Below, piece by piece: positions 6,687 to 41,436 of a DNA stretch of 41,436 bases; position 1 is the first letter of the stretch; every line of letters starts with the position of its first letter. The notes below the pieces were generated by a model, which saw nothing but the letters and a program-made list of their open reading frames with translations, was not told the DNA's origin and made no database searches. The stretch comes from Candidatus Berkelbacteria bacterium CG10_big_fil_rev_8_21_14_0_10_43_13. GTDB taxonomy: Bacteria; Patescibacteriota; UBA1384; XYA2-FULL-43-10; 1-14-0-10-43-13. The stretch is taken from assembly GCA_002773985.1 (NCBI GenBank), contig PEZW01000018.1:98240-139675 (forward strand), in the 5' to 3' direction. A program made the position numbers and the translations under genes.

Positions 6687-6698
6687 GCATTATCTTTT

Positions 6699-6803
6699 GT
6701 CATCCCGGCCTGTGGCTGGAGAGCCGGGATCCAGGCAGGTTGAGTTACACACTACTTAAGTGTTGCTTGTTTCGCCTAGATTCCCGCGTACGCGGGAATG
6801 ACA
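6699..6803. repeat. Intergenic REP-like 'GTCATCCCGG...CGCGGGAATGACA' repeat
   Basis: Intergenic homologue of the sequence inside tgt (38885-38975). Confidence 0.6.
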
Positions 6804-18410: not shown

Positions 18411-18661
18411 CCAGTGTTGTATAATTGTCATCCTGTCATCGACTCTGAGGTCTAGCGACCTCGTCACTCAGACTCGAATGAGAACCGATGTTGTCCTGAA
18501 GGTGAAGGATCTGATAGACCTGTCCTGCCTGCCTGCCGTAGCCATTCGACTTGCGCTCATGGTCTGAGTGTAATTGAAGACTTTAACGAAGGCTGGAGCG
18601 AAGTCGAACGGATTATTCGTTACCTCAGAATGACACTTCGATTTGAATTATACAACAGTGG
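18411..18661. repeat. ~250-bp repeat block bounded by ~17-bp terminal inverted repeats
   Basis: Left CCAGTGTTGTATAATTG versus right end (reverse complement) CCACTGTTGTATAATTC; contains a nested copy of the 45-47 bp palindromic repeat. Confidence 0.5.
18436..18482. repeat. Palindromic repeat B, copy 2
   Basis: TCATCGACTCTGAGGTCTAGCGACCTCGTCACTCAGACTCGAATGAG. Confidence 0.6.
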
Positions 18662-19318: not shown

Positions 19319-19524
19319 GTAACTACTCACTCATATCTGTCATTCCCGCCCCGTATCAGAGTACGGGGTAAACCCCGGCGGGTCATCGACTCTGAGGGAT
19401 GAGCCCTCAGGCTCAGACTCGAATGAGAATCCAGGCAACACTAATTTTTTATAGATCCCCGGGCACCACTCTCGAGAACACCACTGGTCCCGAGGATGAC
19501 AATTATAGAGCGAGTGAGCAGTTA
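19319..19524. mobile_element. MITE-like repeat with GTAACT..CTCACTC..TGTCAT ends
   Basis: Left GTAACTACTCACTCATATCTGTCATTCCC, right GGATGACAATTATAGAGCGAGTGAGCAGTTA; same ends at 1311-1488, 25167-25365 and 41343-41436. Confidence 0.5.
19383..19427. repeat. Palindromic repeat B, copy 3
   Basis: TCATCGACTCTGAGGGATGAGCCCTCAGGCTCAGACTCGAATGAG, interrupting 'GGCGGG|AATCCAGGCA'. Confidence 0.6.
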
Positions 19525-25166: not shown

Positions 25167-25365
25167 GTAACTGATCACTGTCATCCCGCACTGTAAGCTT
25201 GAGAACCTGCCCTGAGCGAAGCCGAACGGGTGCGGGATCTTGTGCTAAAAAGAGAGAAAAGATCCCTGTCTTCGACTCTGAGGTCTAGCGACCTCATCGC
25301 TCAGACTCGAATGAGCTCTCCAGTCTCAGGCAGGGATGACAAACATAAAGTGAGTGAACAGTTAC
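25167..25365. mobile_element. MITE-like repeat, same family
   Basis: GTAACTGATCACTGTCATCCC ... GGGATGACAAACATAAAGTGAGTGAACAGTTAC. Confidence 0.5.
25269..25315. repeat. Palindromic repeat B, copy 4
   Basis: TCTTCGACTCTGAGGTCTAGCGACCTCATCGCTCAGACTCGAATGAG. Confidence 0.6.
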
Positions 25366-33024: not shown

Positions 33025-34092
33025 CTAGGTGCCGACTCGCTTGAGACGGTACGTCCGAGTTCGGACCCCTCCCCAGGGACCGCTCTCGTCCGTGTCCACA
33101 ATCTCCTCCGTCGACCCCTTCGTCAGGGGGATCGCCGGGGCGACCGCTCGGCGGAGCCGAGCGGTATAGCCGGGATTGCCCCGACTATCCCAGCTCCGCC
33201 AAACGATGACGGCCAAGGCGATCACGATGATCGCCAGGATCGTCCCCACAACCCAGGCGGTCGCCGCATCCATCGTCACATTGACGTTGGACGACTGACC
33301 GGCAGTCTGGGAAGGGGTCGGAGTCGGTGCCGTCGCGGATGCGACGGTCGCCGTTCCCGCCATCGGGACCGTGGCGCCAACTGGCGCGTTCTGGTCCTTG
33401 ATGATGGGGTCCAACGCCGCCGGAGCGGCGTTTGGATCAGCGATTAGCGGATCCAACCCAGCAGTTGCCGGAGTTGCCGGCACCGTCGTCGCGGGGGCAA
33501 CAGCAGCGGGCATCGTGCCCACCGCCAGCACACCCGCTTCGGCGCGAGAGTCGACCTGTGCCAACGCTTCCTTCGTAGCGAATTTCTCCGCCACGTCGCC
33601 GCCGGTTACAAACCCTGCACCACGCAAATCACGGTAGACCTGCGCGTGAGACGCCTGCGTACCGCCAAGCGGGTTATCGCGAAGATACTTGATATTGTTC
33701 TCCGCGATTCCCACTCGACCTTCAAGGTTCTTGACCCTGTTTTCCAGAGTGTTGATCCTGGAGCTGATGCTCCTGATCTCGCCCTGGATCCGCTTCACCC
33801 GCGGGTCGCGGGTGCCGTGGGTGGCGGCAACACGGACAGCCTCACGCTGCTTGATCCGCCGTGCAGTTTTGAGCTGCACGATCTGGGTTTTGACCTGAGC
33901 GACAGCAGCCGGCTGGGGAGCCGGCGCAGCGGCCGGAGCCGACTCGTGAGGTATGACTTGCACGCCGTCGTCGGTCGGCCCAATCTGAGCCAGCTCGAGA
34001 GCCGGCTCATCCAGGTCCTGCCCGAAAGCAGGAACGAACGTCGCCGCCACGATGGCGGCGAGAACGAACAAACCAATCTTCGAGGTTTTCAT
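33025..34092 (-). CDS. GC-rich orphan: signal peptide, coiled coil, Ala/Pro/Thr-rich linker, C-terminal TM
   Basis: MKTSKIGLFVLAAIVAATFVPAFGQ...ISSRINTLENRVKNLEGRVG...TAWVVGTILAIIVIALAVIVWRSW...; ATG 34092 preceded by hairpin and GGAAGGG. Confidence 0.65.
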   Translation of the reverse strand: MKTSKIGLFVLAAIVAATFVPAFGQDLDEPALELAQIGPTDDGVQVIPHESAPAAAPAPQPAAVAQVKTQIVQLKTARRIKQREAVRVAATHGTRDPRVKRIQGEIRSISSRINTLENRVKNLEGRVGIAENNIKYLRDNPLGGTQASHAQVYRDLRGAGFVTGGDVAEKFATKEALAQVDSRAEAGVLAVGTMPAAVAPATTVPATPATAGLDPLIADPNAAPAALDPIIKDQNAPVGATVPMAGTATVASATAPTPTPSQTAGQSSNVNVTMDAATAWVVGTILAIIVIALAVIVWRSWDSRGNPGYTARLRRAVAPAIPLTKGSTEEIVDTDESGPWGGVRTRTYRLKRVGT

Positions 34093-34338
34093 GTCCGTAT
34101 CCCTTCCGCGCCGTGGCGCGGCGCGTGACAGGCACTGTTCGTGGAACTCAGTCCACAAATGTCTCGGTGTGTCATTTCCGAGCAAGTAATAGCTAAGCGA
34201 TCGTAATATCTGGCTTCTGTTCCCCGTTCCACTATCTACAATCCACGATCTACTCTTAGCCGCTACTTGCTCGGAAAGACTTGGGTATTTCTCTATTTTA
34301 TTGTCAAGGTACTATTTTGCACCGCTTTACGAAAGAAA

Positions 34339-34426
34339 GCGACAACGTCCTGCATAGTCTCTACGGGTGGAGGGGGAACCCATAGTTCAATCTTACGATA
34401 GAAACGACTACGCAGGACACTATCGC
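34339..34426 (-). ncRNA. Structured leader motif, copy 1
   Basis: - strand GCGATAGTGTCCTGCGTAGTC...GACTATGCAGGACGTTGTCGC (21-bp stem with G-U) around CTATGGGT-tccccctcc-ACCCGTAG. Confidence 0.6.
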
Positions 34427-34543
34427 TTACTTATCCTCCAAGATACTGTCACCAATTCTGGCGCGAATAAACCCTCTCCGACTTCCCCTTTGTCAGAAAA
34501 ACCGATCTGTGGTGAGCTCGTCGAACCCACCGTGCATGGATGC

Positions 34544-34572
34544 ATTTTACAATATTTAACTTTATTTGTCAA
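34544..34572 (-). promoter_or_regulatory. Promoter upstream of 33025-34092 cassette
   Basis: TTGACA (34572-34567), 17 bp, TAAAAT (34549-34544) on -. Confidence 0.6.
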
Positions 34573-34692
34573 TACTGCACTACGGAAAAGATCAATATTT
34601 ACTATTGAACCCTTCCGAGTGCCGACTCCCCTTATGGGGGAGTCGGTTGAAACCCTCCGTCAGCGTCATGCTGAGGTAGGGACTCTAGTTGG

Positions 34693-35577
34693 CTACATCC
34701 TCTTCACAAACGGGATAGCAGCCACACAGGCGAACGCCGCGATTGCGGCGATCCGCCAGAGGACGCCCAGCACGTCTCCTCCTGTCCAGCTGCCGCCGGC
34801 CACCGCACCAACGATCTTGATGATCTGGGCAACAAACACCCAGACCAAGACCAACGGCAGCCAGAACATGAAGATCCATGAGATCGTCCTGGTCCAGTCA
34901 ATGTTGACCGTCGACTGATCCTTCTGACCCCGTGTGGTGACGCTGTCGTCACCAGTCCGATCAGCCTCAGTCGGCTTGTCCATCGACTGGGCGTCTTCGG
35001 CTTGGTCCGGTGTGGTGCCTTCGGCACTTTCTGCCGGATGGGCACCCTCTCCGGTCAACTCTTGCGAGCCATCCGTGGTAGCGGCCGCCGAAGCAGCGGC
35101 GGCTGGCGCACCGTTCTGACCATTGACCCCGTTTTGGCCGGGCTGGCCGGTGGTACCAGCACCCGGAACGACCACGACCTGCTGCTGCGGTGTGGTCGTA
35201 GTAGCGGTCGGGGTCACCCCAACACTCCCATCATCCTTATCGACGACAATCGTCGGATTGAACGTGAGCTGGGGGTTGAACTCGTACACTGGAGCGCCGG
35301 GCTGATAGGTGTAAATGGGCGCACCGTACGCCACACCTGCCGGCACCGCAGCAGCAGCAGTCTGCTGAGCACGCAGATCGGCGATTGCCGCCTGCATGCC
35401 CTCCACGTCAGCCTTGGTGAAAGCGTCGTGGTACGCCTTGTCCGCCTTCGCCCTCTCGGGCGTGACGGACTCGATCGTCACCTCCGGCTTCGCCGTCGGC
35501 GCGGGGCCGTCGGCGAAGGTGGCGGTGACGAGACTCAACGCCGCGAGGGCGCTGACGAACCAACAATTGGTCTTCAT
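34693..35577 (-). CDS. GC-rich orphan: signal peptide, low-complexity ectodomain, two C-terminal TMs
   Basis: MKTNCWFVSALAALSLVTATFADGPAP...ISWIFMFWLPLVLVWVFVAQII...VLWRIAAIAAFACVAAIPFVKRM; hairpin then AAGGAAG before ATG. Confidence 0.65.
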   Translation of the reverse strand: MKTNCWFVSALAALSLVTATFADGPAPTAKPEVTIESVTPERAKADKAYHDAFTKADVEGMQAAIADLRAQQTAAAAVPAGVAYGAPIYTYQPGAPVYEFNPQLTFNPTIVVDKDDGSVGVTPTATTTTPQQQVVVVPGAGTTGQPGQNGVNGQNGAPAAAASAAATTDGSQELTGEGAHPAESAEGTTPDQAEDAQSMDKPTEADRTGDDSVTTRGQKDQSTVNIDWTRTISWIFMFWLPLVLVWVFVAQIIKIVGAVAGGSWTGGDVLGVLWRIAAIAAFACVAAIPFVKRM

Positions 35578-35666
35578 CGAAGCTTCCTTGCGCCTACGCG
35601 GCGCAGGCGCTCACCGTCCGGAAAATCTTATGTTTCCGGAGTCAGTCGATCTGACTTTTACGGGCT

Positions 35667-35715
35667 CATCTCGAGCAAGTAGCTGTCAATATTTGACAGC
35701 TACTTGCTCGAGATG
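35667..35715. repeat. Perfect 23-bp inverted repeat with 3-nt spacer
   Basis: CATCTCGAGCAAGTAGCTGTCAA-tat-TTGACAGCTACTTGCTCGAGATG. Confidence 0.85.
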
Positions 35716-35767
35716 TTTACCTATTTATACATTTTTAAGGTTCTACTTTGTCCCTGTTTTAGAAACA

Positions 35768-35858
35768 GGCGACAACGTCCTGCATAACTCTACGGGTGGA
35801 GGGGGAACCCATAGTCTCGACCCGAAGGCCAAGAATGACTACACAGGACACTATCGCC
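35768..35858 (-). ncRNA. Structured leader motif, copy 2
   Basis: - strand GGCGATAGTGTCCTGTGTAGTC...AGTTATGCAGGACGTTGTCGCC around the identical CTATGGGTTCCCCCTCCACCCGTAG hairpin. Confidence 0.6.
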
Positions 35859-36131
35859 TGATATTTAGTTGGCGCCTTCTCTGGCGCAATTTATCCGTTT
35901 CTATCTGCGCCAAAGTTCTGGCGTTCGAAGGCGGAGGGGAGCCAACGAACACCAGAAACTAGCGCAGAATATAATAATAGACAAGAGTAGAAAAGTATGA
36001 ATCTATAGGTATTTATTAAAAATACTTCATAACTCTATACTGCATACTATTTTTCTTCTTTTGAATACGCCTCCTGAGACCGCCTCCTCACCCTCCGATG
36101 TGGTGAGTGAAGTCTAACCACAGAACTCCGC

Positions 36132-36160
36132 ATTGTAACACGATAAAAAAACTTTGTCAA
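36132..36160 (-). promoter_or_regulatory. Promoter upstream of 34693-35577 cassette
   Basis: TTGACA (36160-36155), 17 bp, TACAAT (36137-36132) on -; -35 lies in a terminator hairpin. Confidence 0.6.
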
Positions 36161-36182
36161 GACATCTCGACAAAGTTTTTTT
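36145..36182. terminator. Bidirectional intrinsic terminator
   Basis: AAAAAAACTTTGTC-n9-GACAAAGTTTTTTT. Confidence 0.75.
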
Positions 36183-36202
36183 GTTGTGCTTAAATTTGGT
36201 TT

Positions 36203-37996: not shown

Positions 37997-39298
37997 TCAT
38001 TTTTCAGTCCTTAGTTCGCACATCAGATTCAGATATGTCCAGAGATTGTGTGTCGTCGTCAGTCTGTGACCGAGTATTTCGTTGCAGCGCAGGAGATGCG
38101 AGATATAAGCGCGACTAAAGCCACCTCCATCCGCCTTCGCATTAATCTTCGGCGAGATCTCGGAATTTCCCCTGCTCCAGAAATTTCCTCGACATGCTTC
38201 ACAACCACAATTTTCATCAATCGGCTTGTCATCTAGGCGATACTCACTTTTCAATAAATTTATAAGTTCGTATTCCGAATCATTTTTGGTTTTTTGTTTT
38301 TGGTTTTTGATATAAACAGATCCGTGCCGTGCTAGTCGTGTCGGCAGGACGCAGTCAAACATATCCATGCCTAGTCGTGTTGCTTTGATGATGTCGTCCG
38401 GTGTGCCAACACCCATCAGATAACGCTGTTTATCTTCCGGTAAGATCTCCCCCATCAATTTCACAATATTCCACATATCTCGCGTTTCGAAGTCAACTGC
38501 CAGTCCGCCGACAGAGTAGCCATCAAAATCAAGCTCTATCAATTCACTCGCCGACTTTCGTCGTAGATCTTCATACAAGCCACCCTGTATAATACCATGA
38601 AGCAATGGGCGTTTACTCGGTACTCGGTACTCGGTACTTGCTACTTTTTTGTCAAAATGCGCCTTCGCTCGCCTCGCCCACTCTGTTGTCAGTCGTACTG
38701 CCTCCTCAACCTCTTCTCGTGTTGCCTTTCCACTGGGACAAACATCGAGCGGCATCAGGATATCGACACCGAGATCGAGCTGAATGTCGATCACCTTTTC
38801 TGGGGTAAAGAAATGTTTACTGCCGTCGAGGTGCGAGCGAAATTCGACACCATCATCCGTGATTTTGACCATTGACTTCAATGTGTCATCCCGGCCTGTA
38901 GCTTGAGAGCCGGGATCCAGGAAGTTGTTTTGCTGTGTTTGGTTCGCCTGGATTCCCGCCTGCGCGGGAATGACAGTGTTTTTGCTGTAATTATTACCCC
39001 TTGCCAAGCTAAAAACCTGGTATCCGCCCGAATCAGTCAGGATCGGTCCATCCCAATTCATAAATTTATGCAGTCCGCCGAGACTCTTGATGTTTTTCTC
39101 GCCTGGACGCAGATAAAGGTGATAAGTGTTTGACAAGATAATTTCCGCTCCCATAGCGCGTAATTCTGCAGGCATCATCGCCTTGACACTGCCGACAGTG
39201 CCGACCGGCATGAAAAAAGGAGCACTGATCATTCCGTGAGGAGTGTACAGTTTGCCGACCCTAGTTCCATTCTTTAATTTTCGTTTTAGAACATACAT
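37997..39298 (-). CDS. tgt: Queuine/preQ1 tRNA-guanine transglycosylase with apparent in-frame insertions
   Basis: 'LSNTYHLYLRPGE', 'LTDSGGYQVFSLA', 'LMGVGTPDDI', 'FDCVLPTRLARHG', 'CGCEACRG'; 433 aa, larger than typical Tgt. Confidence 0.92.
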   Translation of the reverse strand: MYVLKRKLKNGTRVGKLYTPHGMISAPFFMPVGTVGSVKAMMPAELRAMGAEIILSNTYHLYLRPGEKNIKSLGGLHKFMNWDGPILTDSGGYQVFSLARGNNYSKNTVIPAQAGIQANQTQQNNFLDPGSQATGRDDTLKSMVKITDDGVEFRSHLDGSKHFFTPEKVIDIQLDLGVDILMPLDVCPSGKATREEVEEAVRLTTEWARRAKAHFDKKVASTEYRVPSKRPLLHGIIQGGLYEDLRRKSASELIELDFDGYSVGGLAVDFETRDMWNIVKLMGEILPEDKQRYLMGVGTPDDIIKATRLGMDMFDCVLPTRLARHGSVYIKNQKQKTKNDSEYELINLLKSEYRLDDKPIDENCGCEACRGNFWSRGNSEISPKINAKADGGGFSRAYISHLLRCNEILGHRLTTTHNLWTYLNLMCELRTEK

Positions 39299-40346: not shown

Positions 40347-40444
40347 GTCATTCCCGCCCCGTATCAGAGTACGGGGTAAACTCCGGCGGGAATCCATTCC
40401 TTAATGTCTGTATTGCCTAGATTCCCGCCTTCGCGGGAATGACA
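40347..40444. repeat. Intergenic REP-like 'GTCATTCCCGCCCCGTATCAGAGTACGGGG...GCGGGAATGACAG' repeat
   Basis: Shares CCCGTATCAGAGTACGGGGTAAA..CCGGCGGG with 19339-19382 and the reverse form at 1433-1475. Confidence 0.6.
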
Positions 40445-41330: not shown

Positions 41331-41391
41331 ACATTTTTTGTGTAACTACTCTCTCACTTCATGTTTGTCATCCCTGCCTGAGGCTGGAGAG

Positions 41392-41436
41392 CTCATTCGA
41401 GTCTGAGCGACGAGGTCGCTAGACCTCAGAGTCGAA
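41392..41436. repeat. Palindromic repeat B, copy 5 (inverted, cut by window end)
   Basis: CTCATTCGAGTCTGAGCGACGAGGTCGCTAGACCTCAGAGTCGAA. Confidence 0.6.

Follow-up and report, generated by a model that had tools for sequence, protein, structure and literature searches.

A family of long covarying hairpins with a nearly invariant C-rich loop in Berkelbacteria and related Patescibacteria

The window, a stretch of 41,436 nucleotides from a Candidatus Berkelbacteria genome (contig PEZW01000018.1, positions 98,240 to 139,675), contains copies of an uncatalogued RNA family, and we have hardly any doubt that this family is real. It is a long covarying hairpin of variable sequence, which takes the form of a three-way junction in two of the bacterial families that carry it (f1 and f2). 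Its existence, reading strand, structure, covariation, distribution and gene context are established by the comparisons given here.

Structure, covariation and reading strand

Two full copies lie on the minus strand of the window, copy 1 (34332..34434, loop at 34369-34377) upstream of gene A and copy 2 (35762..35865, loop at 35798-35806) upstream of gene B. Both fold as three-way junctions, with a long stem (P1) of about 21-23 bp that contains an internal mismatch, a variable first junction arm (P2), and an arm (P3) that bears the 9-nt loop UCCCCCUCC. The original prediction, made from the letters of the window, had described two copies at these positions that share a long-range stem of about 21 bp and an identical inner hairpin around diverged sequence. 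Each of these elements was recovered: the P3 hairpin CUAUGGGU-UCCCCCUCC-ACCCGUAG has the same letters in both copies, and P2 differs in sequence between them with its pairing kept in both. The folding energies of copies 1 and 2 on the minus strand are -50.7 and -52.7 kcal/mol, with z-scores against shuffles of -7.0 and -6.2, as compared with weaker values on the plus strand (-3.9 and -1.8). When the genome was searched by DNA similarity, the full-length element was found only twice, as these two copies. A third and simpler copy, H0 (35905..35967, minus strand), shares one leader with copy 2 and forms a long hairpin whose loop, UCCCCUCC, is closed by GGC/GCC. It matches the covariance model R3, which was not trained on it, with 39.8 bits (E 7.5e-8) and an agreeing fold, and a search with the same model located a fourth copy elsewhere in the source genome, on contig C7.

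The minus-strand consensus promoter that had been proposed upstream of each copy is likewise present, as TTGACA-17-TAAAAT (34572-34544) before copy 1 and as TTGACA-17-TACAAT (36160-36132) before H0 and copy 2, both of them promoter-like by consensus match only. Transcription of the element and its level of expression are what we infer. An imperfect palindrome (36132-36195) encloses the promoter-like site of gene B.

Outside the source genome, a DNA search gave one clear match, to two tandem copies in a genome of another genus of the same family (G002). A covariance model (R1) built from these four copies, two from the window and two from G002, then retrieved two tandem copies in G003 and one each in G004 and G007. 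Across the eight three-way-junction copies double-sided changes occur in 14 of 27 pairs and 95.3% of cells are paired, a level reached by none of 500 shuffles, and structures slid along the alignment pair at most 51%. At the locus near tgt, families f3 and f4 have the element as one long, unbranched hairpin that lacks P2; its loop is of the type found in the full form, and its internal mismatch occupies the corresponding position. Most of these simple forms escaped models R1 and R2, which were based on the three-way junction, whereas the core model R3 recovered them and placed the element in 10 of the 11 genomes of the order, with a similar copy in G001. Once P2 was removed, double-sided changes were present at 21 of 30 pairs among twelve copies from the order (Berkelbacteria), and 92.6% of cells were paired; none of 500 shuffles matched this, and slid controls stayed at or below 50.5%. 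Sense matches scored 77-102 bits as against 21-40 bits for antisense matches, which places the RNA on the strand of the genes. Each of the 27 elements folds more stably than its shuffles (z -3.8 to -11.3), and the internal mismatch keeps its position with variable sequence, leaving the apical loop as the strongly conserved unpaired part.

A covariance-model search of Rfam 15 gave no family above the gathering threshold for the hairpin, and sub-threshold matches only, to a microRNA, STnc400 and RsmY. The original prediction had proposed a structured RNA on the minus strand, not recognised as any known riboswitch class, and had named covariation in homologues and searches of Rfam and related genomes as the means to check it. 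The fold z-scores, the covarying pairs of the twelve copies, the excess of sense over antisense scores, the Rfam search without a match above threshold and the relatives found across the order and the class all agree with that proposal.

Gene context in the order and forms beyond it

Copies in the order sit after a sigma-70-like promoter and before a GC-rich gene for a signal-peptide or membrane protein, sometimes in tandem; a promoter-like site of at least 10/13 lies upstream of 24 of 27 elements, as counted in a scan without a matched background control. In the window, gene A (33025..34092, minus strand) encodes 355 aa with a signal-peptide-like segment, a coiled-coil-like region and one hydrophobic segment, and gene B (34693..35577, minus strand) encodes 294 aa with an N-terminal signal-peptide-like segment, an Ala/Pro-rich composition and C-terminal hydrophobic segments. 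Their GC3 (0.73 and 0.74 respectively) exceeds the range of 0.36-0.53 measured for six further genes in the window, and a Pfam search returned no match for gene B and none above the cut-off for gene A. A GC-rich gene occupies the same place in G006 and G009. The downstream proteins as a group have a signal-peptide-like N-terminus, Ala/Pro-rich or coiled-coil stretches and hydrophobic segments; by BLAST they are too diverged for homology to be recognized, with architecture alone in common, and since they cannot be aligned well, conservation is stronger in the RNA than in the protein. To one side of the locus lie tgt, rplL and rplJ; to the other lie the genes for a protein of about 700-1340 aa and for an ATPase that we take, from our own reading of its sequence, to be VirB4-like; the position near tgt is conserved in most genomes checked. 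The start codons of genes A and B and of their counterparts in G002 and G005-G009 usually lie in a hairpin with the first codons, the sequences of which differ between genomes. The -30 to +45 start regions fold at -18 to -36 kcal/mol as against -2 to -12 in 19 other genes of the window, a difference to which high GC contributes.

Several other repeats were observed in this region. Two of them, a perfect palindrome of 23 bp (35667-35715) and an inverted repeat with a spacer (34175-34277), have common arms, CGAGCAAGTAGC, and each lies between the RNA motif and a start codon; in several relatives, judged by eye, a long hairpin of different sequence occupies this place. The window also holds dispersed MITE-like repeats with GATTCCCGCC...GCGGGAATGACA and ACTCTGAGG...CAGACTCGAATGAG palindromes, located at 1405-1494, 6696-6803, 18432-18482, 19320-19428, 25265-25365, 38884-38975, 40347-40444 and 41342-41436.

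In other families of the class, R3 found matches in G023, G034, G019, G031 and G018 (E 1.7e-10 to 1.2e-4) and weaker ones in G044, G037, G039, G014, G020, G028 and G051 (E 4e-4 to 0.18), among which G037, G014, G028, G020 and G051 are members by E-values of 0.005-0.18 plus inspection only. Matches in two further genomes of the class (G024 and G048) were ascribed to chance. Four of these genomes (G018, G031, G039 and G044) have a promoter-like site followed by the hairpin, with no sense gene close downstream; the next gene in G044 is a convergent thioredoxin-like gene (by Pfam), and the same was seen by inspection in the other three. Poly-U follows the hairpin on its 3' side in the stand-alone forms of G018, G019, G031, G034 and G039, and in G014 and G028 (loci L114 and L116) the hairpin lies just upstream of groES-groEL (Cpn10). 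The exact 18-mer GGTTTTCCCCTCCTTGCC occurs in 6 of 380 genomes, all of them within the class. With up to two mismatches, it gave 18 matches outside the class compared with 19 for the control; none of those that were folded forms a long hairpin of this kind. Five genome matches outside Patescibacteria are without an extended hairpin. As far as sequence can tell, the element outside the order resembles either an independent small RNA or the leader of groES. The earlier description of the element as a leader holds for the window's order, in which it stands upstream of genes, and is too narrow for the class, as in other families it is apparently a free-standing small RNA.

The loop pattern was also found in viral contigs, often on long stems of unrelated sequence. 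A stem score of at least 8 was reached by 11 of 40 and by 15 of 30 viral matches, two sets that overlap and contain near-identical contigs, as compared with 1 of 15 for a reversed-loop control. Contig L234 has a promoter, the hairpin and a U-run, and in four sequence groups (L236, L243, L258 and L267/L269) the hairpin adjoins a major-head-protein gene. A search for annotated relatives of six viral stretches gave a match only for a T7-like capsid region. On viral contigs R3 scored well only for L236 (E 0.0011; L234 at 0.74), and common descent with the bacterial element is therefore not established; the viral hairpins may represent convergence on the same loop.

The C-rich loop and its possible function

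Over stems that differ in sequence the loop is nearly invariant, with the consensus GGU-(UU)YCCCC(C)UCC(UU)-RCC, and the loops of all elements read (U)UCCCC(C)UCC(UU) or CCCCCUUCC. The 16S gene of G018, a relative with the small-RNA form, ends GGATCACCTCCTTTCT, so that the loop letters CCUCCUU are identical to the anti-Shine-Dalgarno tail, and the anti-Shine-Dalgarno-like character first ascribed to the loop was thus matched at a 16S 3' end. The stand-alone loop is typically UUUUCCCCUCCUU, which includes these letters.

We favour, tentatively and with a probability of roughly 40%, a mechanism in which the loop base-pairs with ribosome-binding sites and would thereby tune translation. A strong sigma-70-like promoter close upstream would drive a hairpin-bearing transcript, the exposed loop with its 16S anti-Shine-Dalgarno letters would pair with purine-rich ribosome-binding sites, and the hairpin would act in cis where it belongs to a leader and in trans where it forms a small RNA of its own. 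A broader and rather unlikely version would make the bacterial and viral hairpins one widespread class, common to Patescibacteria and diverse phages, in which a mimic of the 16S 3' end acts on the translation of genes with high expression (for surface proteins, chaperonin and capsid), from leaders and free small RNAs alike.

A Shine-Dalgarno GGAGG precedes the downstream start in six of nine genes of the order (those of G003, G005, G006, G007, G008 and G009); the window's two genes and that of G002 lack it (GGAAGGGA, AAGGAAG and AAAGGAA). The spacing between loop and start codon varies widely, from some 60 nt in G009 up to several hundred. In seven genomes AGGAGGGGAAA was found 20 times besides the RNA genes, mostly at start codons, as against 3 times for the reversed control. 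For G034 (e.g. L152, L158 and L170) the corresponding counts were 10 beyond the RNA gene and 2, again mostly at starts. Extended complementarity to start regions showed no excess over permuted loops in the whole of G018 and 280 kb of G023, so the surplus of AGGAGGGGAAA may reflect just ordinary Shine-Dalgarno sites. Because the test for extended complementarity was negative, we rate pairing of the loop with ribosome-binding sites as plausible and no higher. The UUCCCC half of the loop is conserved as strongly as CCUCC, and this needs another reason, perhaps a protein. A hairpin in G018 that displays AGGAGGGGG is antisense to a lexA-like gene, which looks coincidental. A leader-peptide attenuator was rejected, as no consistent short ORF with a start, a ribosome-binding site and polyproline codons runs across the loop.

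The main rival to pairing is a protein that binds the loop, with the leaders as regulated mRNAs and the stand-alone copies as decoys or carriers in the manner of CsrA and its small RNAs. Near-invariance of the whole loop and of its closing GG/CC pairs goes beyond what a Shine-Dalgarno interaction needs, and the freely varying stems, the tandem copies and the lack of excess in extended mRNA complementarity all fit such a protein. We nevertheless consider it doubtful, as no candidate protein emerged and the identity of the loop with the 16S tail would have to be coincidence.

It is distinctly unlikely that the hairpin mainly stabilizes or terminates strongly transcribed units and that the loop is incidental, a folding aid or nuclease-resistant. 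Such a role would suit the very stable folds, the promoter-like sites, the poly-U after several copies and the hairpins adjoining phage major-head-protein genes, but would leave a nearly invariant loop over diverged stems unexplained, and several leader copies are without a U-run.

The original prediction also proposed a switch-like alternative hairpin in a riboswitch-like or translation-linked leader; in a riboswitch reading, P1 and the overlapping 3' hairpin would exchange upon binding of a ligand. The alternative pairings can be drawn as it described them, at 34317..34345 for copy 1 (minus strand; CGCUUU/AAAGCG, overlapping the 3' strand of P1) and at 35748..35775 for copy 2 (minus strand), but a fold constrained to contain them is less stable by 13.4 and 6.1 kcal/mol respectively. 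By inspection, a hairpin 3' of the stem overlaps it in four copies of f1 (two in G000, and G002b and G003b), is essentially separate from it in G004, G005 and G007, and does not show up in G006, G008 and G009 or among the stand-alone forms. A pair of conserved, mutually exclusive pairings was thus not found, in view of the energy cost and the lack of conservation across the family on inspection. A switch is not supported because of this cost and because the overlap with P1 is clear only in f1; the strongly conserved part, moreover, is a single apical loop and not a junction pocket, and we regard a ligand-dependent leader as very improbable. Scarcely credible is a mobile inverted-repeat element or DNA-level site, which two or more similar inverted repeats close together might bring to mind, but which we reject because of the covariation, with compensatory changes that include G-U pairs on one strand, and the conserved position near tgt, the full-length copies moreover occurring only twice in the genome.

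Significance and comparison with known systems

Regulatory RNA of the Candidate Phyla Radiation is little charted, and a search of open-licence papers found none on structured RNAs of Berkelbacteria. With strong covariation, a near-invariant loop and a clear gene context, the element is open to experiment. If the loop mimics the anti-Shine-Dalgarno sequence, it would offer a form of translational control by RNA only, at work both in leaders and in a separate small RNA, with look-alikes next to the capsid genes of phages; should a protein bind the loop, the loop would be a bait with which to find that protein.

Like intrinsic terminators, several copies consist of a strong hairpin followed by a U-run. 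Unlike in terminators, it is the loop that is conserved and not the U-run, which is present in some copies and absent or weak in others, and a gene follows many copies. LhrC and other Gram-positive RNAs with UCCC motifs reportedly have C-rich loops that pair with Shine-Dalgarno regions. The C-rich loops of the Gram-positive RNAIII are described as pairing with the Shine-Dalgarno regions of its targets (PMC3927594). The likeness to RNAIII and LhrC, compared by description only, lies in C-rich hairpin loops; a difference is that the element in the window belongs to the leader of an mRNA.

The closest resemblance is to alpha-proteobacterial small RNAs that carry CCUCCUCCC hairpin loops on diverged stems, namely the alpha-r14/SmelA075 family (NfeR1) and the CcsR 'cuckoo' RNAs, with their ultraconserved anti-Shine-Dalgarno loops and strongly diverged stems (PMC3927594, PMC10746234). 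An anti-Shine-Dalgarno loop on sequence-diverged covarying stems is common to these RNAs and to the present element. They have several hairpin modules per RNA (PMC3927594, PMC10746234), whereas the present element consists of one long hairpin, interrupted by an internal mismatch and in some copies enlarged to a three-way junction. Their CCUCCUCCC, which is absent from the hairpin loops of all our elements, contrasts with (UU)YCCCC(C)UCC(UU), and no DUF1127 gene was seen beside the element. Use in mRNA leaders and a host among Patescibacteria instead of Proteobacteria set it apart further. The element is therefore of a kind already known, anti-Shine-Dalgarno loops on diverged stems, and differs in loop sequence, architecture, use in leaders of surface-protein genes and host group.
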